Made by a program: the position numbers and the translations under genes. 64,000 nt of DNA from an uncultured SAR86 cluster bacterium (GTDB lineage Bacteria > Pseudomonadota > Gammaproteobacteria > Magnimaribacterales > D2472). The stretch is from positions 261,229-325,228 of the forward strand of contig CACEDS010000002.1 in NCBI GenBank assembly GCA_902558395.1. The letters run 5' to 3'. Under the pieces are notes generated by a model. It had not been told where the DNA came from and did no database searches. It saw only the letters and a list, made by a program, of their open reading frames with translations. Of the stretch, positions 6,447 through 25,947 are shown in pieces (position 1 is the first letter of the stretch; the number at the start of each line of letters is the position of its first letter).

Positions 6447-7127
6447 ATGAAATTTAAAGAATTTGCTGAATCAAGAAAAAGCGTAAGAGGCTTCTTAGAT
6501 AAACCTGTCCCAAAAGAGTTAATCGATGAAATTATTGATGCTGCCAAATGGGCTCCAACTTCATATAACACTCAAACTTGGCATATTCATGCAGTTGCTG
6601 GTGATGTGTTAAATAAAATAAGGGAGGGTAATATTGAAGAAACAATGGCTGGTAAGCCCCATGTTAGAGACTTTCCTTATAAAGAAGAATATGAGGGTGT
6701 TCATAGACAAAATCAAATCGATGTTGCTATTCAACTTTTCGAGGCCATGGGAATTGAGAGAGACGATAAAGAACAACGCATGGATTGGATGTTGAGAGGC
6801 TTTAGACAATTTGATGCACCGGTCTCACTAGTACTTACTTATGATAAATATTTAGAACCAGCAGCAATCAGTCAATTTGGTCTGGGATCATTAGCTTATG
6901 GAATTGTCTTAGCTGCATGGGAGAGAGGAATAGGTTGCGTTATTAATGGTCAAGGAATTATGCAGTCTCATGTTGTTCGAGAACACGCTCAAATACCTGA
7001 CGATCAAAATATAATGATTTGTATAGCTATGGGTTTTCCTGACGAGGACTTCCCGGCAAACCACGTCCGCTCAGTAAGAGCTGATAATAGTGATTTTGTA
7101 AAATATATAGGTTTTGAAGATAGCTAA
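6447..7127 (+). CDS. nitroreductase family protein
   Basis: At 226 residues this is a full-length flavin nitroreductase-like protein. The N-terminus SRKSVRGFLDKPVPKELI with KWAPTSYNTQTW forms the FMN-binding pattern of the family, where the Arg-Ser-x-Arg element contacts the phosphate. GLGSLAYGIVLAAWERGIG and AMGFPDEDFPAN are the usual later blocks. These enzymes are FMN-dependent, NAD(P)H-using reductases of nitro compounds, quinones or enones; the physiological substrate is unknown. The 3' end overlaps the convergent SRPBCC gene by 4 bases. Confidence 0.9.
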   Translation: MKFKEFAESRKSVRGFLDKPVPKELIDEIIDAAKWAPTSYNTQTWHIHAVAGDVLNKIREGNIEETMAGKPHVRDFPYKEEYEGVHRQNQIDVAIQLFEAMGIERDDKEQRMDWMLRGFRQFDAPVSLVLTYDKYLEPAAISQFGLGSLAYGIVLAAWERGIGCVINGQGIMQSHVVREHAQIPDDQNIMICIAMGFPDEDFPANHVRSVRADNSDFVKYIGFEDS

Positions 7128-19200: not shown

Positions 19201-19488
19201 TTAAGTTATTAGCTTGGGAATTATTCCTAGTTGAGCAAGAATACCAAAAATAATTAACAATATAATACTGGAGATTATTTTAAGATTCTTCTTTTGAATC
19301 CATTCTAATAAGTTATCTATAAGTTTTCTTATCCATTTATCTGCTTTATCGACCCATGTAATAGCTTTTCTTGTCCATGAGTCAGTCACATCGATTAATG
19401 AAAGAAAAATTGCTCCGATTACAAGCCACGCAAAGCCATTAAGAATCATATCGATTAGCCAGCCTAAAATCACCCAATTTATTTCCAT
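19201..19488 (-). CDS. 95-residue membrane protein, hypothetical
   Basis: Hydrophobic helices at each end (GWLIDMILNGFAWLVIGAIFLSLI and IISSIILLIIFGILAQLGIIP) flank an amphipathic Trp/Lys-rich middle (WTRKAITWVDKADKWIRK). That middle is likely to lie along the membrane surface. No Cys or catalytic motif. It lies just outside the outermost clear glmS-end copy (19516-19533), so it may be cargo of one more, older cassette. Function unknown. Confidence 0.65.
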   Translation of the reverse strand: MEINWVILGWLIDMILNGFAWLVIGAIFLSLIDVTDSWTRKAITWVDKADKWIRKLIDNLLEWIQKKNLKIISSIILLIIFGILAQLGIIPKLIT

Positions 19489-19515: not shown

Positions 19516-19553
19516 TTACTCCACCGTAACTGACTATTTTTAAACAGTGATTT
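19516..19553 (-). repeat. glmS-end copy 6 (outermost clear copy) with adjoining right-end repeat
   Basis: On the minus strand TCAGTTACGGTGGAGTAA encodes SVTVE-stop (core 19516-19533). It is preceded by a 5-base spacer ending in the stop triplet TAG and by a perfect AAATCACTGTTTAAA (19539-19553). It differs from the living glmS end only at third codon positions. With the copy at 20057 it brackets the lipoprotein cassette between two exact, oppositely oriented 15-mers. Confidence 0.85.
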
Positions 19554-19567
19554 AATTCTAACACTAT

Positions 19568-20026
19568 TTATTCTTTTGATTTTTTAGCATCATAAAAAAT
19601 TACATCATGCCCTTTTTTTTCAAGGCATTTCTCAAGACCAGAATATTCTCTAAACTCCTTTGTTGCATTTGTAACAAAAATTGTTGAACCTCCTAAGACG
19701 CCTCCCACAGTTCCTGCTGCGACATAAATAGGCGCAAAAACTCCACTTGCAGTGGCAATTGTATAAAGTCCACCTAATGCTAAATAAGATCCAAAACCAA
19801 TACCAACTTTTGAAAATCTATTTGCTCTATTGTTAGATGTTTTTATACATTCATCTAACTCATTCTCAAAAGCATATAGATCTGTATCAGATGACCTTTT
19901 TACATATACAGGCGTATTGACTAACTGTGAGTACTCTTCAGCATCAGGTTTTACATTGATAGTATTGGAAACACATGAGGATAAAACAAATATAAATAGA
20001 AAAAAAAATAGGCCCTTATTTTGCAT
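19568..20026 (-). CDS. lipoprotein with glycine-zipper-like hydrophobic segment (cassette cargo)
   Basis: The 152-residue protein has a lipoprotein signal peptide ending VLSSC-VS. Further on lie an acidic helix with a second Cys (LDECIKTSN), a Gly/Ala-rich hydrophobic stretch (VGIGFGSYLALGG and GTVGGVLGGSTIFV) and a Lys-rich C-terminus. Glycine-zipper lipoproteins are common in gammaproteobacteria, but I recognise no specific family. It is the sole cargo of the cassette between the glmS-end copies at 19516 and 20057. It starts 15 bases inside the left repeat. Confidence 0.75.
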   Translation of the reverse strand: MQNKGLFFFLFIFVLSSCVSNTINVKPDAEEYSQLVNTPVYVKRSSDTDLYAFENELDECIKTSNNRANRFSKVGIGFGSYLALGGLYTIATASGVFAPIYVAAGTVGGVLGGSTIFVTNATKEFREYSGLEKCLEKKGHDVIFYDAKKSKE

Positions 20027-20040
20027 AATTTTCTATTTCT

Positions 20041-20074
20041 AAATCACTGTTTAAAATTACTCCACCGTGACGGA
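20041..20074 (-). repeat. glmS-end copy 5 with adjoining left-end repeat
   Basis: Minus-strand TCCGTCACGGTGGAGTAA (20057-20074) encodes SVTVE-stop using GC-ending codons. One base later comes a perfect TTTAAACAGTGATTT (20041-20055 on the plus strand as AAATCACTGTTTAAA). Upstream the frame stays open as MITTRRKQ-SVTVE, unlike other displaced copies that meet a stop at once. The codon choice matches the GC-rich sulfotransferase cassette just upstream, suggesting both came from the same donor. Confidence 0.85.
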
Positions 20075-20099
20075 TTGTTTTCGTCGTGTCGTGATCATG

Positions 20100-20798
20100 C
20101 TAACGCTCGTAACCCATTGCATCGAACTCGATCCTGCAGTTCTTATATATTTGGTCCTTTACTTTCTGCGACAACAGCTCGGATGCAGGCCTTCTGTTAG
20201 TTCGGAATTCGTGTTTGGTTTGTGGATAGTGCGCGATAATATCAAATTCAAGCCTGTCGCCGAGGGTCGCGAGGTCTTCCTGCATATTGTCAAAATTGAC
20301 AATGAAATCGACAATAGGTTTTTCACCGTCTGAATAGGTTGGGTAACTGACGTAATGCTTCTTCTTCAGAACACGCTCAAGCTCCTTGTCAAAACTCCAG
20401 TTCTTTTTTCCGCGCGCCCGATAATAGATATGCGATACAACCTTTTCGTACGGATGCCTTTCGATCGAAAAAGTGAAGTAATCATCGTAAGTTTTTTTGC
20501 CGACGTACTCGCGAATCGCAACAGCCGGCATATGATTGAAAAACTTGCCACGGCGTCTGGCGCGTAAAAATTTCATCTTGCGTGCCTTTATCATATCGCG
20601 ATATCGCTGCTCTCCAAGACCACCGTAGTTCTGAGGTAACGTGCCGCCCATGTCCAGCCTGACGAGTTCGTCTTCAAACGATATCGGAGTGATGATGTCA
20701 TCGGGACCACAGACTTGGCTCAGACTAACCTCCATGCTTGTGCCCGAGGTTTTACGGGTCTTTACGAAAATAAACTTCTTTGCGTGGCTAACGATCAT
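20100..20798 (-). CDS. sulfotransferase family protein (cassette cargo)
   Basis: The 232-residue protein begins IVSHAKKFIFVKTRKTSGTSMEVSL; KTRKTSGTS is the 5'-phosphosulfate-binding loop that grips the PAPS donor. Later FSIERHPYEKVVSHIY gives the 3'-phosphate-binding Ser and Arg. It fits the Sulfotransfer_2-like group that adds sulfate to sugars or lipids, so a surface glycan is a likely target. Its ATG overlaps the end of the second sulfotransferase gene by 11 bases. Local GC is far above that of the neighbours: 32 of 60 bases in 20641-20700. Confidence 0.87.
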   Translation of the reverse strand: MIVSHAKKFIFVKTRKTSGTSMEVSLSQVCGPDDIITPISFEDELVRLDMGGTLPQNYGGLGEQRYRDMIKARKMKFLRARRRGKFFNHMPAVAIREYVGKKTYDDYFTFSIERHPYEKVVSHIYYRARGKKNWSFDKELERVLKKKHYVSYPTYSDGEKPIVDFIVNFDNMQEDLATLGDRLEFDIIAHYPQTKHEFRTNRRPASELLSQKVKDQIYKNCRIEFDAMGYER

Positions 20799-21591
20799 TG
20801 GTTGCTCTGCTGATTCGACTAAGTCCTTTCTTGCGTCGATAGATAGCTATTTTTCTCGAAGCATCAATGGATTGCGAAATTCTCTGCCAAAAACGTTTTT
20901 TTTCCGGATACCAACTGTTAGATTTATCCGGTAAAACGCCGTCCAAAATAACTTCCCAATCCGGCGATGATTCGTATCCACAACCGACCAGATCTGATGT
21001 CATTGTGCCATGGATTGCCTGCTGTTGAACGATGCGACCGAGATGTTTTCGCCAGACACCGACACTGGTCGGTCCAATAGGACGGACGCCACGCATTGCA
21101 ACCTTTGACTTTTCAGACACTTGCGCGTATTCATGGTACTCAGAAAATTTGTGTTGTTTCTCAAGCCATGGAAATTTTGCAGTGATTTGGCTTTGTGTGG
21201 CGTCAGGGTTATTTACGAAATCCTCGTACCGGATATTGAGAAAACGATCGTGGCCGAACAATGGGCGTGCACAGGCATGCAATTCACGCCAAAGCCTAAT
21301 GTTCGAGTAGTACATATCCTCGCTCTTACCGTGCCGGCTAACGATGACATCACGCGGATCGCGCGTTACGTAAATGACATAGAGATTAGGATCGTCGATG
21401 ACTCCTGGCATGTACAACGTATCTTTGGGTCGTTTCGTGATAACCACATCGTTGTTTTTTGCGGTTACGAGGTGAAAGCGAATCTCATGGTCATAATGCT
21501 TGTTTGTCCGAAAACAGGTGACCATCGCCTGGTGCAAGAGAGTAGTACCGGATCGCGGCGAGCAGGCAACAATGTGAATGTGCTTAAACAG
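20788..21591 (-). CDS. sulfotransferase, probable CTG start (cassette cargo)
   Basis: The track starts at a TTG (21537) inside the cofactor site. Extending the frame 18 codons upstream to CTG at 21591 recovers FKHIHIVACSPRSGTTLLHQ, where SPRSGTTLL is the 5'-phosphosulfate-binding loop. IYVTRDPRDVIVSRHGK is the 3'-phosphate motif. An in-frame TGA lies two codons above the CTG, and AGGGAG sits 7 bases before it, so CTG initiation is the simplest reading. A one-base frameshift joining an upstream TTG is the alternative. The product has about 267 residues. GC is 33 of 60 bases in 21001-21060, unlike the flanking AT-rich genes. Confidence 0.8.
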   Translation of the reverse strand: MFKHIHIVACSPRSGTTLLHQAMVTCFRTNKHYDHEIRFHLVTAKNNDVVITKRPKDTLYMPGVIDDPNLYVIYVTRDPRDVIVSRHGKSEDMYYSNIRLWRELHACARPLFGHDRFLNIRYEDFVNNPDATQSQITAKFPWLEKQHKFSEYHEYAQVSEKSKVAMRGVRPIGPTSVGVWRKHLGRIVQQQAIHGTMTSDLVGCGYESSPDWEVILDGVLPDKSNSWYPEKKRFWQRISQSIDASRKIAIYRRKKGLSRISRATNDR

Positions 21592-21643
21592 ACGTCAACT
21601 CCCTAGTGCGCCGTCGAGGGCCGAATACTTCTTTTGGTAAAAA

Positions 21644-21666
21644 TCATTCGACTGTAAACGATTAAG
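21644..21666 (-). repeat. glmS-end copy 4, partly diverged
   Basis: Minus-strand TCGTTTACAGTCGAATGA (21644-21661) reads SFTVE-stop: one Val-to-Phe change, TGA instead of TAA, otherwise third-position changes. Upstream CTTAA meets it exactly as in the copy at 22928, and before that AAATTTGGTTTACC is a decayed form of the AAATCACTGTTTAAA repeat. It marks the border between the GC-rich sulfotransferase cassette and the AT-rich esterase-like lipoprotein cassette. Confidence 0.7.
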
Positions 21667-21676
21667 GTAAACCAAA

Positions 21677-22834
21677 TTATTGTTGTTTGTAATTTTGGTC
21701 ATGTAGATTCATTATATTTTCAGCGATTGTATGTAAGTCAGTATTAAAACCTGTGTCGGCGTCATTGGTTCTTAAGTTAACTCCATATAACCCATTCAAC
21801 CATATTAGCGCTCCTGTGTTAATAACAATTTCACCTTGATGTCCCTTTGTATCTGTAAATATTGAATCATCATAAGAACCAAATAAAGAAATATCATCAA
21901 GCAATAAATTATTTTCATACTGATCAACCAAATCAAATGTTGCCCACCCCGTTGGCAGAGTAAATATTTCTGTTGAAGGGTATAATTCGCGCAACTGATC
22001 AATGACTGACTTGTGTGTGATATCGCTAACCACATCTTCATAAACATCTCTTATATTGTTATACCCAAAACCTTCTGCTCTTTGCTGCCAGTCTGCTGGA
22101 AAATCTATAGGTGGAATGGATATAAATATTTTTATGTTAGGGTTATTTTGCAAGGCATAATCTATCCATTCTGTAAAACCTGATAAAGGATTAGTTTCAT
22201 TGAAATACCAGGTCATCCCAAGAATTTCGATATTTCCAGAGTCTAGAATTTGTTTGATTTCAGTATTTGTATCTTCATCTGTCCATAACCCAATTGGGGT
22301 GCCGTTATCACCACCCCTGAAAACAAGATTATCTCTGTGTTCTAAAAAGTCTGCATCTAGTGCTAATTCGCTGAATCTTTCAGCGTAAGGTCTAAAAAAA
22401 CTATTACCCATAAGCAACATATTTGATCCACCCATACCCTCAAGAACATCATTAATGGAGACTATTATTCCAAGTGATGAGGATAACAAACCATCTGATG
22501 CGATTATGGTTACTTCATAAATATTATCTTGATTACTGTCTTGTGGATTTTCATAGTCTGGAGGCGAAATAAAAGATAGTTCTCCAGATACACTCCCTAT
22601 CGTCATTAATACTGAGTCAGAACCTTCGATGGAATAAGTTATATTGTCACCCTCGGCATCTGTTGCTTGAATGGTAGTTATCTCAGTGGTGTTTTCATCA
22701 ATTGCAAAATCAATTAAACCTATTAATTGAGGTGCTGTATTTACTTGTTCGGGTGTCTCACTGTTGCTTCCTCCGCCGCCACACCCTAAAAGAGTAGTCA
22801 GCAGAATAATTAGATATCCGTAGTTTTGTTTCAT
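21677..22834 (-). CDS. lipoprotein with cadherin-like repeat and SGNH-like domain (cassette cargo)
   Basis: The 385-residue protein has a lipobox TLLGC followed by four Gly, then a cadherin-like repeat at about residues 30-130 (DAEGDNITYSIEG, DGLLSSSLGIIVSINDV). The C-terminal domain opens LLMGNSFFRPYAERF, resembling the nucleophile region of SGNH hydrolases; a DTKGHQGEI block may hold the late His. Esterase or glycan-deacetylase activity is possible but not shown. It is the only cargo between the copies at 21644 and 22928, and shares the lipobox-polyglycine-Ig/cadherin plan with the CotH lipoprotein at 9209. Confidence 0.75.
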   Translation of the reverse strand: MKQNYGYLIILLTTLLGCGGGGSNSETPEQVNTAPQLIGLIDFAIDENTTEITTIQATDAEGDNITYSIEGSDSVLMTIGSVSGELSFISPPDYENPQDSNQDNIYEVTIIASDGLLSSSLGIIVSINDVLEGMGGSNMLLMGNSFFRPYAERFSELALDADFLEHRDNLVFRGGDNGTPIGLWTDEDTNTEIKQILDSGNIEILGMTWYFNETNPLSGFTEWIDYALQNNPNIKIFISIPPIDFPADWQQRAEGFGYNNIRDVYEDVVSDITHKSVIDQLRELYPSTEIFTLPTGWATFDLVDQYENNLLLDDISLFGSYDDSIFTDTKGHQGEIVINTGALIWLNGLYGVNLRTNDADTGFNTDLHTIAENIMNLHDQNYKQQ

Positions 22835-22927
22835 ATGTATTTTTATAAACTATGTATTAAATATAGACTTTTATTTTTATTAATAGTTCAACACTTAGTA
22901 ATTTTTGATTAACCGAGAAACCTTTCT

Positions 22928-22965
22928 TTATTCAACAGTAACTGATTAAGTTTAAACAGTGATTT
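22928..22965 (-). repeat. glmS-end copy 3 with adjoining right-end repeat
   Basis: Minus-strand TCAGTTACTGTTGAATAA (22928-22945) encodes SVTVE-stop. It follows CTTAA and a perfect AAATCACTGTTTAAA (22951-22965). The reverse complement of this end, GATTAAGTTTAAACAGTGAT, matches GAGTAAGTTTAAACAGTGAT at the living glmS end with a single mismatch, so the two form long inverted repeats around the 22.9-24.1 kb segment. Confidence 0.87.
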
Positions 22966-23066
22966 GACTCCAACCCCTTTGTATTCAACTTCTTCATATC
23001 TTTCATTTTCGTTTAGAAACACTTCTTCTTGCTAATACTTGGTGGATAACAACTAGTTTTAAAGAT

Positions 23067-23480
23067 TTATTGGATTATCTCCTGAAAACTAAATTGTATT
23101 TTATCACCATAGTTTGAATTGATATTTGATTTGTTCAAATCTAGGATTTCTTCGGATTGATCGAGGATATTTTTAGCATCATCTATTGTTATAGATTCTA
23201 TTTTTGCTGCCCATTCCTCAAGAGCACTAAATTCTTCTGATATTTTTTCAGAAATTGCTTCGTCATAACCCATAAAATAATTTGCAATTGGATCAGCATC
23301 TTCATCAGAAAGATCTAGATCAATATATGTTCCAAAAAGATTATTGCCTTCTTTCGAAATAAGATTCACGGTAATCCAAAATTCCATACCTGGAGAATGA
23401 TATTCTATGTTTGGGTCATCAAGCATTTTTCCTTTAGCATATTCTAATGCGACACCTAATACCTTTTCTTTTATGTTCAT
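23067..23480 (-). CDS. acidic hypothetical protein (cassette cargo)
   Basis: The 137-residue soluble protein is strongly acidic (DLSDEDADPI, EEFSALEEWAAKIES) with no signal peptide, membrane segment or Cys apart from none seen. Helical patterns dominate its C-terminal half. I do not recognise a family; acidity and size resemble immunity or anti-toxin-like proteins, but nothing else supports that. It is the sole full-length cargo between the copies at 22928 and 23526. The ATG is followed by a clean frame, and TTGAGGT lies about 9 bases upstream. Confidence 0.7.
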   Translation of the reverse strand: MNIKEKVLGVALEYAKGKMLDDPNIEYHSPGMEFWITVNLISKEGNNLFGTYIDLDLSDEDADPIANYFMGYDEAISEKISEEFSALEEWAAKIESITIDDAKNILDQSEEILDLNKSNINSNYGDKIQFSFQEIIQ

Positions 23481-23509
23481 ATTAATACCTCAATTTATTT
23501 AATTATATT

Positions 23510-23542
23510 AAATCACTTTTTAAAATTACTCCGCGTAACGGA
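23510..23542 (-). repeat. glmS-end copy 2, decayed by a one-base deletion
   Basis: Minus-strand TCCGTTACGCGGAGTAA (23526-23542) is one base short of an SVTVE-stop frame. One base later TTTAAAAAGTGATTT (23510-23524) is the left-end repeat with one mismatch. The preceding triplet is TAG, as in other displaced copies. Its codons (TCC, GTT, ACG) are unlike those of the living glmS, so it is not a recent local duplicate. Confidence 0.8.
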
Positions 23543-23596
23543 CTAAGTCTGTAAGACAATTTGATTCTCCTCTTTAGAATCGTGTTTCTTAGTCAT
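23543..23596 (-). pseudogene. 17-codon outward-facing gene start cut at the cassette border
   Basis: A strong GGAGG ribosome-binding site lies 7 bases before an ATG at 23596 that opens MTKKHDSKEENQIVLQT and then stops at a TAG directly touching glmS-end copy 2. A good start signal with so short a frame looks like the 5' fragment of a gene truncated when the cassette formed, rather than a working peptide. A small peptide gene is the alternative. Confidence 0.35.
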
Positions 23597-23710
23597 AGTC
23601 TGTCCTCCACGTTCCAAATATAACATCTTTTCGGTTTGACCTTTAGGTATGACATATCCTTTTTTCTTCTATAAGATAACTTTAAATGGAAAGTTTCCTC
23701 AAAGAAGATT

Positions 23711-24052
23711 ATGAAATATAAAAGACCTAAGCATCAATTAGAAGATACGATAGCATCAACAGTGATGTTGACTGCTCTTGGGTATTTTCTATGGAGAATT
23801 ATAAGGTTTCTTTTTTGGGATTTTTTTATTTACTCTTATTACTTCATTTATTACTCACTTTATTACATCATTTTTATTCCCTATAAATATTTAATTTTTA
23901 TTCCTTTAATTTGGTTAATCGGATTACTTTTCCCAAAAACAATTAAAGATCTAGAATCAATAATCAAGAAACTTAAAAATAATATAGAACAATTCAAAGA
24001 AAATTTGAAAACCGCATGGGAGAAATTCAAAAAAAATATTGCCATAAGGTAA
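23711..24052 (+). CDS. membrane protein with C-terminal coiled coil (cassette cargo)
   Basis: The 113-residue protein has an N-terminal basic stretch. Aromatic-rich hydrophobic helices follow (ASTVMLTALGYFLWRIIRFLFW, FFIYSYYFIYYSLYYIIFIP and YLIFIPLIWLIGLLFP), then a Lys/Glu-rich amphipathic tail (LESIIKKLKNNIEQFKENLK) that should form a coiled coil on the cytoplasmic side. No family recognised. It is the only cargo gene on the plus strand in the array, facing glmS, and the only full-length gene of the cassette nearest glmS. Confidence 0.65.
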   Translation: MKYKRPKHQLEDTIASTVMLTALGYFLWRIIRFLFWDFFIYSYYFIYYSLYYIIFIPYKYLIFIPLIWLIGLLFPKTIKDLESIIKKLKNNIEQFKENLKTAWEKFKKNIAIR

Positions 24053-24070
24053 ATTAACGGGAGAATTATT

Positions 24071-24106
24071 ATGGATAAACAGTGTATGGGTTTGAGTAGA
24101 GTTTAA
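24071..24106 (+). pseudogene. 11-codon gene start ending inside the cassette repeat
   Basis: GGGAG seven bases before an ATG at 24071 opens MDKQCMGLSRV, and the stop TAA lies in the first bases of the repeat beside the living glmS end. Like the fragment at 23543-23596 it has a good start signal and reads outward into a cassette end. It is either a truncated gene or a very short peptide. Confidence 0.25.
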
Positions 24107-24138
24107 ATCACTGTTTAAACTTACTCTACAGTCACTGA
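24105..24138 (-). repeat. living glmS 3' end with adjoining left-end repeat (integration site)
   Basis: Minus-strand TCAGTGACTGTAGAGTAA (24121-24138) is the actual end of glmS, preceded in frame by NLAK. One base after the stop is a perfect TTTAAACAGTGATTT (24105-24119), followed by AAACTC. This is the active edge of the array: the next element would be expected to integrate here. The position lies at the locality known as attTn7 in other bacteria. Confidence 0.87.
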
Positions 24139-25947
24139 TTTAGCTAGATTCCTTGGCTGATCAATATCTGTTCCTCTTAGAAGTGCAACTTCGTATGAAA
24201 GAATTTGTAATGGAATGTTATAAACAATTGGTGTCATAAAGAAATCACATTCAGGCATGTGAAGTAATTTACCAGACTTAACATCCATATTTACTGAAGG
24301 ATCGGCAAATACGTAAAGAGTGCCCCCTCTAGCCTTAACCTCTTCTAAGTTAGAAATTAATTTTTCTGCTATTTCGCTTTCTGGTGCCAGCGCTATAACA
24401 GGCATATTTTCATCTATTAATGCAAGCGGGCCATGTTTTAGCTCTCCAGCAGGATATGCTTCAGCATGGATATAAGAAATCTCTTTAAGTTTAAGCGCGC
24501 CTTCTTTGGCGATAGGGTAGAAGATACCTCTACCTAAAAATAAAGCATTTTCTTTATTGGCAATGCTTGGAGCTATCTGAACCATTTGCTCTTTTGTGTT
24601 AAGAGCTTCTGTAATAGTTTCTGGAAGCAATCTTAATGCTTGAACAATTCTTCCCCTAAGTTTTGGGTTTAGCCCTCTGCTTTTTGCAAGTGATAATGCA
24701 AGCAGCATTAGTCCTGCCAATTGAGTTGTAAAAGCTTTAGTTGAAGCAACACCTATTTCAGGACCCGCATTGGTAAATAGTGAAAAGTCTGACTCTCTAG
24801 CTAAAGAGCTCGTAGGTACGTTACAAATGGTAAGGGTAGAGAGATAGTCTTTTTCTTTTGCATAGTTTAATGCAGCTAACGTATCAGCTGTTTCACCTGA
24901 TTGAGAAATAGTAATTAATAATGCATTTTCATCTACATGAGGATTCCTGTATCTATACTCACTGGCATAATCAATTTGGCACGGAAGTTCGGCTATTGAC
25001 GAAAACCAATTTGCAGCCACTCTCCCTGCATGTAGACTTGTTCCACAAGCAACTATTTGAATACGTCTTGCTTTTGAGAATATTTCGTTGGAACCTAAAC
25101 CAAAGATATTATCTAAAACGTCCTCACCCCCTATTCTTCCCTCTATTGTTTTTGAAACAGCTTCAGGTTGTTCGTATATTTCTTTTTCCATATAGTGCCT
25201 GTAATCACCCTTTGAGGTGGCTTGAGCTGAAATATCTATATGTGTAATTTCTCTTTTGGCTTCGTTTTTGGATTCATCAAAGATTTTATAACTATTTGCA
25301 GAGATCTCTGCCACATCACCATCTTCTAAAAAAATAAAATCATTGGTTTGTTGAGCTATAGCAAGCGGATCTGAAGCTGCAAACATTTCATCAGTTCCAA
25401 TCCCTATTAATAGAGGTGATTTGTTTCTTGCTATAACCAAATTAGTACTATCTTTTATATCAATAGCTGCGATTGCATATGCTCCTTCAAGTTTTTCTTT
25501 TGCTGAATACATTGCATCAATCATTGACTGACCTTGGTTGATATATAGATCAAGCATATGAGCGATTAGCTCTGAGTCTGTTTGAGAGATAAATTCATAG
25601 CCGTCTTTCTTAAGGCCTTCTCTGAGTTCAACATAATTTTCAATAATGCCGTTATGAACAATATAAACCGAATCTTGAGACTTGTGGGGATGAGCATTAA
25701 TCTCTGATGGCTCTCCATGGGTTGCCCACCTTGTGTGAGCAATGCCCAATTTACTTTTTGGTTTTTCAGCAATCATTTTTTCTTCTAAAAGCTGAACTTT
25801 TCCAAGGGTTCTAAGATGGGCTATGCTGTCATTTTTATGCAGAGCGATTCCTGCTGAGTCATATCCTCTATATTCCATTTTGTGGAGTCCTTGGACTAAG
25901 AGCTTTCCAACATTTCTATTTGAAGCAGCAGCTATAATTCCACACAT
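24121..25947 (-). CDS. glmS: glutamine-fructose-6-phosphate aminotransferase (isomerizing)
   Basis: At 608 residues this is full length. Cys2 of MCGIIAA becomes the N-terminal nucleophile of the glutaminase domain (residues 2-240; TRWATHG and NGIIENY are the substrate loops). Two SIS sugar-isomerase domains follow (ACGTSLHAGRVAANWF, SQSGETADTLAAL, EISYIHAEAYPAGELKHGP). It makes glucosamine-6-phosphate for cell-wall and LPS synthesis. The gene starts 2 bases after glmU ends, so they form one operon. Its final codons are the target copied through the downstream cassette array. Confidence 0.98.
   Translation of the reverse strand: MCGIIAAASNRNVGKLLVQGLHKMEYRGYDSAGIALHKNDSIAHLRTLGKVQLLEEKMIAEKPKSKLGIAHTRWATHGEPSEINAHPHKSQDSVYIVHNGIIENYVELREGLKKDGYEFISQTDSELIAHMLDLYINQGQSMIDAMYSAKEKLEGAYAIAAIDIKDSTNLVIARNKSPLLIGIGTDEMFAASDPLAIAQQTNDFIFLEDGDVAEISANSYKIFDESKNEAKREITHIDISAQATSKGDYRHYMEKEIYEQPEAVSKTIEGRIGGEDVLDNIFGLGSNEIFSKARRIQIVACGTSLHAGRVAANWFSSIAELPCQIDYASEYRYRNPHVDENALLITISQSGETADTLAALNYAKEKDYLSTLTICNVPTSSLARESDFSLFTNAGPEIGVASTKAFTTQLAGLMLLALSLAKSRGLNPKLRGRIVQALRLLPETITEALNTKEQMVQIAPSIANKENALFLGRGIFYPIAKEGALKLKEISYIHAEAYPAGELKHGPLALIDENMPVIALAPESEIAEKLISNLEEVKARGGTLYVFADPSVNMDVKSGKLLHMPECDFFMTPIVYNIPLQILSYEVALLRGTDIDQPRNLAKSVTVE

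Follow-up and report, generated by a model that had tools for sequence, protein, structure and literature searches.

Our analysis indicated that the two sulfotransferase genes at 20075-21643 of the window (the whole stretch of 64,000 nucleotides of DNA from an uncultured SAR86 bacterium that was analysed) very probably make up a single cassette, part of an array that site-specific recombination has assembled at the 3′ end of glmS. This integron-like cassette system behind glmS has so far been unrecognised, and single genes are repeatedly swapped in and out of it. No paper on glmS cassette arrays was found in the open-access literature, subscription journals being outside the search. SAR86 bacteria are among the commonest of the surface ocean and have a streamlined genome (1.29 Mb for the SAR86-type genome of the window), and their routes of gene gain are poorly understood. 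An array that swaps one gene at a time at a single site would be a concrete and testable route of gene gain, with a cargo that includes genes for restriction-modification and for enzymes with a possible effect on the surface.

The array behind glmS

The host gene glmS (24121-25947, minus strand, 608 aa) ends in SVTVE-stop, and this coding end is the integration platform. Six glmS-end sequences, all on the minus strand, were found between 19516 and 24138. They give five cassettes with one or two genes each, bounded by 18-bp copies of the glmS end (SVTVE-stop), in an array that spans from glmS (24121) to the gene at 19201-19488.

The true glmS end is core A (TCAGTGACTGTAGAGTAA, 24121-24138), with the exchange at the AC 24132-24131. 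Cassette 1 (23536-24131) lies between cores A and B and has a gene on the plus strand (23711-24052) for a membrane-like protein of 113 aa. Core B (23526-23542) is degenerate and one base shorter. Cassette 2 (22939-23535), whose inverted arms are matched (arm score 14.5), has a gene of 137 aa on the minus strand (23067-23480) and is followed by core C (TCAGTTACTGTTGAATAA, 22928-22945). The gene of cassette 3 (21655-22938) is on the minus strand (21677-22834) and encodes a lipoprotein-like protein of 385 aa with a cadherin-like region, the cadherin match (E 2.5e-5) being below the Pfam cut-off. Core X (21644-21661), which is degenerate (TCGTTTACAGTCGAATGA), shares its right half with other copies of the sulfotransferase cassette. 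The sulfotransferase cassette itself is the fourth (20068-21654), and core D (TCCGTCACGGTGGAGTAA, 20057-20074) separates it from cassette 5 (19527-20067). This last cassette, which is also present in L088 and L114, has a gene on the minus strand (19568-20026) for a lipoprotein-like protein of 152 aa. Its arms are matched (TTTTAAACAGTGATTTA and TAAATCACTGTTTAAA, arm score 18), and its predicted circle junction is TAAATCACTGTTTAAAAATAGTCAGTTA joined to CGGTGGAGTAATTTTAAACAGTGATTTA. Core E (19516-19533) is the distal end of the array. The conserved resident gene beyond it (19201-19488, minus strand, MEINW..., 95 aa) closes the array in several relatives; in L033, L035, L043, L046, and L048 its start is again found behind the last core.

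A possible identity of the gene at 19568-20026 as an enterotoxin subunit was dismissed, as the weak NCBIfam match, of 18 bits where the cut-off is 500, is in all likelihood due to chance. There was no Rfam match in the array, and promoter-like sites were in no excess over chance there (12 versus 18 expected). Lipoprotein-like proteins with nearly the same N-terminus (MKxNYxYLIILxTxLxxCGGG) and partly different C-termini (cadherin-like, YHYH) occur in cassettes of different genomes, at 21677-22834 in the window, at 7357-8511 in L044, and at 2725-4395 in L098.

Similar arrays were found in relatives. A glmS match was present in all 41 related genomes, the protein being 84-96% identical in most relatives of the same genus. 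We examined 29 downstream stretches of SAR86-order genomes, that of the window included; at least one cassette between consecutive cores was found in 25 of them and at least two in 20, and the largest array had 11. The 256 cassette instances collected (some genomes were fetched twice) reduced to 184 distinct cassettes of 0.2-4 kb, with a median of 557 bp. In these 184, the largest ORF had the orientation of glmS in 143 and the opposite one in 19. Cassette order and neighbours vary between genomes.

The sulfotransferase cassette

Sulfotransferase 1 (20788-21591, minus strand) has about 267 aa and sulfotransferase 2 (20100-20798, minus strand) has 232 aa. Both proteins passed the Pfam cut-offs, for Sulfotransfer_2 at 20100-20798 (E 1.7e-5) and for Sulfotransfer_3 and Sulfotransfer_1 at 20788-21537 (PF03567, PF13469, and PF00685). 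PAPS-type motifs were read by eye in both, CSPRSGTT with RDPRDVIVSRHG and KTRKTSGTS with ERHPYEKVVSHIYY. Judged by these profiles and motifs, the two cargo proteins are PAPS-type sulfotransferases matching the PAPS-dependent families Sulfotransfer_1/2/3. The P-loop CSPRSGTT lies upstream of the TTG start given by the ORF lister; therefore a CTG start at 21591, behind GGGAG, is likely for sulfotransferase 1. Most copies seem to have CTG at this codon (21589-21591), L088 has ATG, and an in-frame TGA immediately before it is conserved. The start codon may be a non-standard or weakened one.

The stretch 20075-21643 has a G+C content of 0.467, versus a mean of 0.348 (sd 0.026, maximum 0.412) in the other 1,569-bp stretches of the window, an excess of about 4.6 sd. 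The 60-base lines at 20641-20700 and 21001-21060 contain 32 G+C each, the earlier count having been 32 and 33, and GC3 of the two sulfotransferase genes is 0.56 and 0.48, versus 0.17-0.31 in the adjoining genes checked. The initial annotation, which had described a GC-rich sulfotransferase pair amid AT-rich neighbours, was therefore right on both points. Its limits for the cassette were also good, as the right one (21643) abuts the degenerate glmS-end copy at 21644-21661, and the glmS-end copy that it had placed at 20057 is present at 20057-20074 on the minus strand (TCC GTC ACG GTG GAG TAA).

Near-identical copies of the cassette were found in eight other records (L088, L103, L106, L128, G007/L040, G012/L041, G022/L054, and G024/L047), with DNA identities of 96.8-98.8%; the copy in G024/L047 is a contig-end fragment of 327 bp. 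The glmS of these eight records, where available, was 66-80% identical to that of the window. All six copies measured, including that of the window, had a GC content of 0.44-0.47 in AT-rich loci (0.34-0.40). The 181 distinct cassettes longer than 150 bp had a mean GC of 0.329, and the only one of at least 0.44 was a truncated copy of the sulfotransferase cassette in L106. Because no other cassette reaches 0.44, the sulfotransferase cassette stands out from the pool, and a recent foreign origin is plausible for it. Its neighbours and its position in the array differ between genomes. On this comparison of copies, the cassette has recently spread horizontally, as a composition-foreign unit, between distant SAR86 relatives.

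The initial annotation had seen the pair as one cassette imported from a GC-rich donor together with the donor's own glmS end. The single unit of foreign composition, moved horizontally, has held; the glmS end has not, since it is the recombination site of an array whose cassettes are mostly AT-rich, exchanged at its centre, and not part of a donor gene. The GC-ending codons of the copy at 20057 had been taken as a sign of the donor. However, G/C occupies 59% of the five wobble positions in the glmS genes' own ends (57 ends) and 53% in the cassette copies (234 copies), and the left and right halves of the copy at 20057 belong to different cassettes. As glmS ends in these AT-rich hosts are already GC-rich at wobble positions, this copy is no pointer to a GC-rich donor. 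A one-off import of the pair from such a donor with its own glmS end is thus very improbable: its GC of 0.467 and GC3 of 0.48-0.56 would fit, but the same cassette is present at different array positions in at least eight other SAR86 records, and GC-ending codons are normal for glmS ends. One-off event aside, a GC-rich source of the cassette is possible. Homologues at the same place in other genomes, which the initial annotation had thought might be of host-like composition if its reading failed, do exist, yet they are equally GC-rich. We did not find the donor in the collections searched, where no close relative outside SAR86 appeared and the best match outside SAR86 had 35% identity, on a Roseobacter plasmid. 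No relatives of sulfotransferase 2 were found in phage records and viral contigs.

The sulfotransferase cassette has no matched arms, and its 5′ end varies between copies, apparently by small deletions. It may be partly disabled. Because of these two features another route is also conceivable, by which the cassette may have moved recently.

The recombination site and candidate enzymes

Comparison of the same cassette across neighbourhoods places strand exchange at the invariant AC of the core TCnGTnA/CnGTnGARTRR. In 72 pairs of contexts with only the downstream cassette in common, agreement was 0.18 at wobble position 5, which is the chance level, 0.71 at position 8, and 0.99 at position 14. 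In contexts that share only the upstream cassette (214 pairs), it was 0.72 at position 2, 0.58 at position 5, and 0.37 at position 8. Agreement switches between positions 5 and 8, and the exchange is therefore at the invariant AC. The core halves co-segregate with cassette ends. Target-site duplication as the origin of the flanking repeats was ruled out by this mapping, because the half-cores travel with the cassette ends.

The cassette ends carry complementary 17-bp arms centred on the AC. At 11-27 nt from the AC, complementarity in 181 cassettes exceeded that of re-paired controls with z of 3-11 at all positions but one, and it was found at shift 0 only (13.2 matches versus at most 7.2 at other shifts). 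At least 11 of 17 arm positions matched in 105 of the 181 cassettes, versus 17% of random pairs. The well-matched cassettes had 79 distinct arms, which ranged from GTTTGAACAGAGAATTA to ATTTGGTTGTACCAGTT. The recombination sites are thus kept in structure more than in sequence, as seen from the arm covariation (z up to 11), although common descent of some cassettes may account for part of this signal. Predicted folds of circle junctions had a mean of −15.7 kcal/mol, versus −10.5 for re-paired ends and −10.4 for the array junctions as found; in a circle, arms and core would form a palindrome capable of a hairpin. At least 11 of 17 positions matched in 64% of first cassettes versus 33% from the fifth on, and this somewhat better matching near glmS, in small numbers, would fit cassettes that enter beside glmS and decay afterwards.

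We propose the following mechanism, in which site-specific exchange at the glmS end is shown by the mapping above, and the circle, the hairpin recognition, the read-through expression, and the enzyme are inferred. A circular cassette intermediate would have a site made of a 22-bp core between two complementary arms of 17 bp, the core imitating the glmS end (TCnGTnA/CnGTnGARTRR). Strand exchange, by a recombinase that we suppose to recognise the folded (hairpin) site, would take place at the central AC, between the circle and either glmS or another core. From then on glmS would end in the codons and stop supplied by the incoming right half-core, and the left half-core would lie at the distal border of the cassette. 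Inserted cassettes follow glmS, mostly in its orientation, and would probably be expressed by read-through. A tyrosine recombinase acting in trans, in the manner of integrons, is our most likely candidate for the enzyme, though only tentatively.

In the genome of the window, the tyrosine recombinases found with NCBIfam were of the XerD and XerC types only (XerC with 330 bits, just below the cut-off of 335), and most relatives carry the same two. No IntI was found near glmS, and the integron-integrase model gave 155 and 114 bits with the two recombinases of the genome, versus a cut-off of 265. No integrase adjoins glmS or lies inside the cassettes in this genome, and among the cargo families listed there was no integrase, other recombinase, or transposase. 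A recombinase common to the non-SAR86 hosts of arrays was not evident; several of these genomes had not even XerC/XerD matches and therefore look incomplete. The question posed is which recombinase acts where only XerC and XerD are found.

The best geometric fit among the alternatives for the enzyme, though not for the array, is a serine recombinase of a visiting element, acting on double-stranded sites with AC as 2-bp central overlap. Serine recombinase sites are exchanged within 2 bp at the centre of a dyad, at a non-palindromic dinucleotide, and the exchange mapped here likewise lies within 2 bp at the dyad centre, at an invariant non-palindromic one. However, the serine recombinase domain (PF00239) was above the cut-off in only one of the 41 genomes with no convincing core beside it, and covarying arms of many unrelated sequences misfit one sequence-specific binding domain. 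We consider this enzyme unlikely. The 526-aa serine integrase of G006 was rejected as the enzyme, as there was no convincing core within 9 kb of it. Something other than a tyrosine recombinase in trans, a serine recombinase, or XerC/XerD is to be given the same low weight. An IS110 or Y1 enzyme from a visiting element is possible; IS110 (DEDD, PF01548) and Y1 (IS200/IS605-type, PF01797) matches were present in none of the 41 genomes, and reverse transcriptase (PF00078) was absent or rare in them.

A little less likely again is integration of the cassettes by the host XerC/XerD, which is also a rival for the enzyme and not for the array. At Xer sites, specific arms of 11 bp lie on either side of a central region of 6 bp. 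These two are the only recombinases found in nearly all genomes, but the SAR86 dif site (TTCGCATAATATATATTATGTTAAAT) resembles neither core nor arms, and identity of the core with dif was rejected. Xer-mobilised gene modules do exist, in the dif modules (pdif) of Acinetobacter, where small gene modules are likewise shuffled without an integrase of their own (PMC6449649). They use dif-like sites on plasmids, whereas the SAR86 site is derived from glmS.

Homologous recombination of the RecA type after DNA uptake, within the short cores or shared neighbouring cassettes, is improbable. A core does lie on both sides of every cassette, and cassettes with eroded arms, such as the sulfotransferase one, have still been shared recently. 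But 18 bp is short for RecA, the exchange occurs sharply at the central AC and is not spread over the 18 bp, and the dyad-symmetric arms around that AC call for a different cause. The least credible reading is a casposon- or Tn7-like transposon that has inverted repeats at its termini and duplicates a target of 18 bp. Such an element would account for inverted terminal arms, for gene-end repeats flanking each cassette, and for glmS, whose end is the target of Tn7, but not for core halves that travel with cassette ends, insertion inside the glmS coding end, and cargo with no transposase among the families listed.

Tn7 and Tn7-like transposons also insert at glmS, but the insertion point of Tn7 lies past the glmS stop, where a short target duplication is made. 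In the SAR86 arrays the exchange falls within the end of the coding sequence, and Tn7 genes were not seen. Genomic islands and tycheposons, as integrative elements, likewise use the 3′ end of a conserved gene as attachment site and rebuild it. They are large and have their own tyrosine recombinase, whereas the SAR86 cassettes are small and have none; a Methylopumilus/OM43 tycheposon that ends at glmS starts at a tRNA and carries xerD (PMC10872708).

The arrays resemble integrons, whose attC sites recombine as folded single strands (PMC2727003) and which likewise combine one exchange point with structure-conserved arms and a constant platform. Both have small co-oriented cassettes arrayed at one platform, and in both the site is poorly conserved in sequence with arms conserved as self-complementarity. 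However, the SAR86 genome has no IntI and no integrase beside the platform, which is the coding end of the essential glmS, and its site has dyad symmetry around the exchange point, each of the two cassette ends contributing a part. In attC, AAC/GTT R boxes are at the outer ends and recombination occurs at one of them, while in SAR86 the exchange is at the AC in GTNACNG at the dyad centre. Assignment to integrons was tested by IntI and attC (R′/R″ boxes), which define an integron; neither was found, and we therefore do not class the system as one. It is an evenly poised proposal that SAR86 and some other marine gammaproteobacteria have a separate class of gene-capture platform, with the coding end of an essential gene as attachment site, a dyad site with sequence-free arms whose fold is recognised by a recombinase for which such an action is not yet known, and the last glmS codons rewritten by each insertion. 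The array would then be the second case in nature, after integrons and independent of them, of cassettes captured through structure-conserved sites.

Distribution and cargo

A scan of named bacterial and archaeal genomes with one arm-core type gave 69 loci, mostly in SAR86 and also in Pseudohongiella, OM182, SAR92, Luminiphilus, Woeseia, and Porticoccaceae. The same strict arm-core pattern, searched in 369 genomes across the class, was found only in the genome of the window, and the system is therefore not general. In a scan of that whole genome, core sites were confined essentially to glmS. Of 19 arm hits in the 41 genomes, 16 were within arrays; one of the other three was examined and lies inside a long coding frame. 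Three pattern scans of viral contigs for the site gave no match. Arrays were also seen on contigs labelled SAR11, Woesearchaeota, Alphaproteobacteria, Vicinamibacterales, Gemmatimonadetes, and Verrucomicrobia (L077, L086, L111, L115, L125, and L135), and the few array contigs labelled as other phyla are probably mis-binned.

The cargo families listed were restriction enzymes and methylases, HNH nucleases, small membrane proteins (DUF805 among them), oxidoreductases, and proteins of no known function. With the restriction-modification genes carried by other cassettes, the array behind glmS has the look of a site at which defence genes are exchanged, and a defence theme is plausible for it in general but not for the sulfotransferase pair in particular. 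A change in surface sulfation under phage or predator selection, which the initial annotation had suggested for the pair, is a conjecture.

Restriction-modification parts in cassettes of L033-L060 and L069-L137 included MvaI/BcnI, DpnI-like, MrcB-like, YhcG-like, and HNH proteins, and C5 and N6/N4 methylases. The glmS at G003:C1:398488-400312 is interrupted by several stops in the assembly, possibly by sequence errors, and its cassettes look normal. On the reverse strand of L131, two cores lie 24 bp apart at 6552-6594, apparently a collapsed cassette or a tandem core, and this is a possible clue to excision errors.
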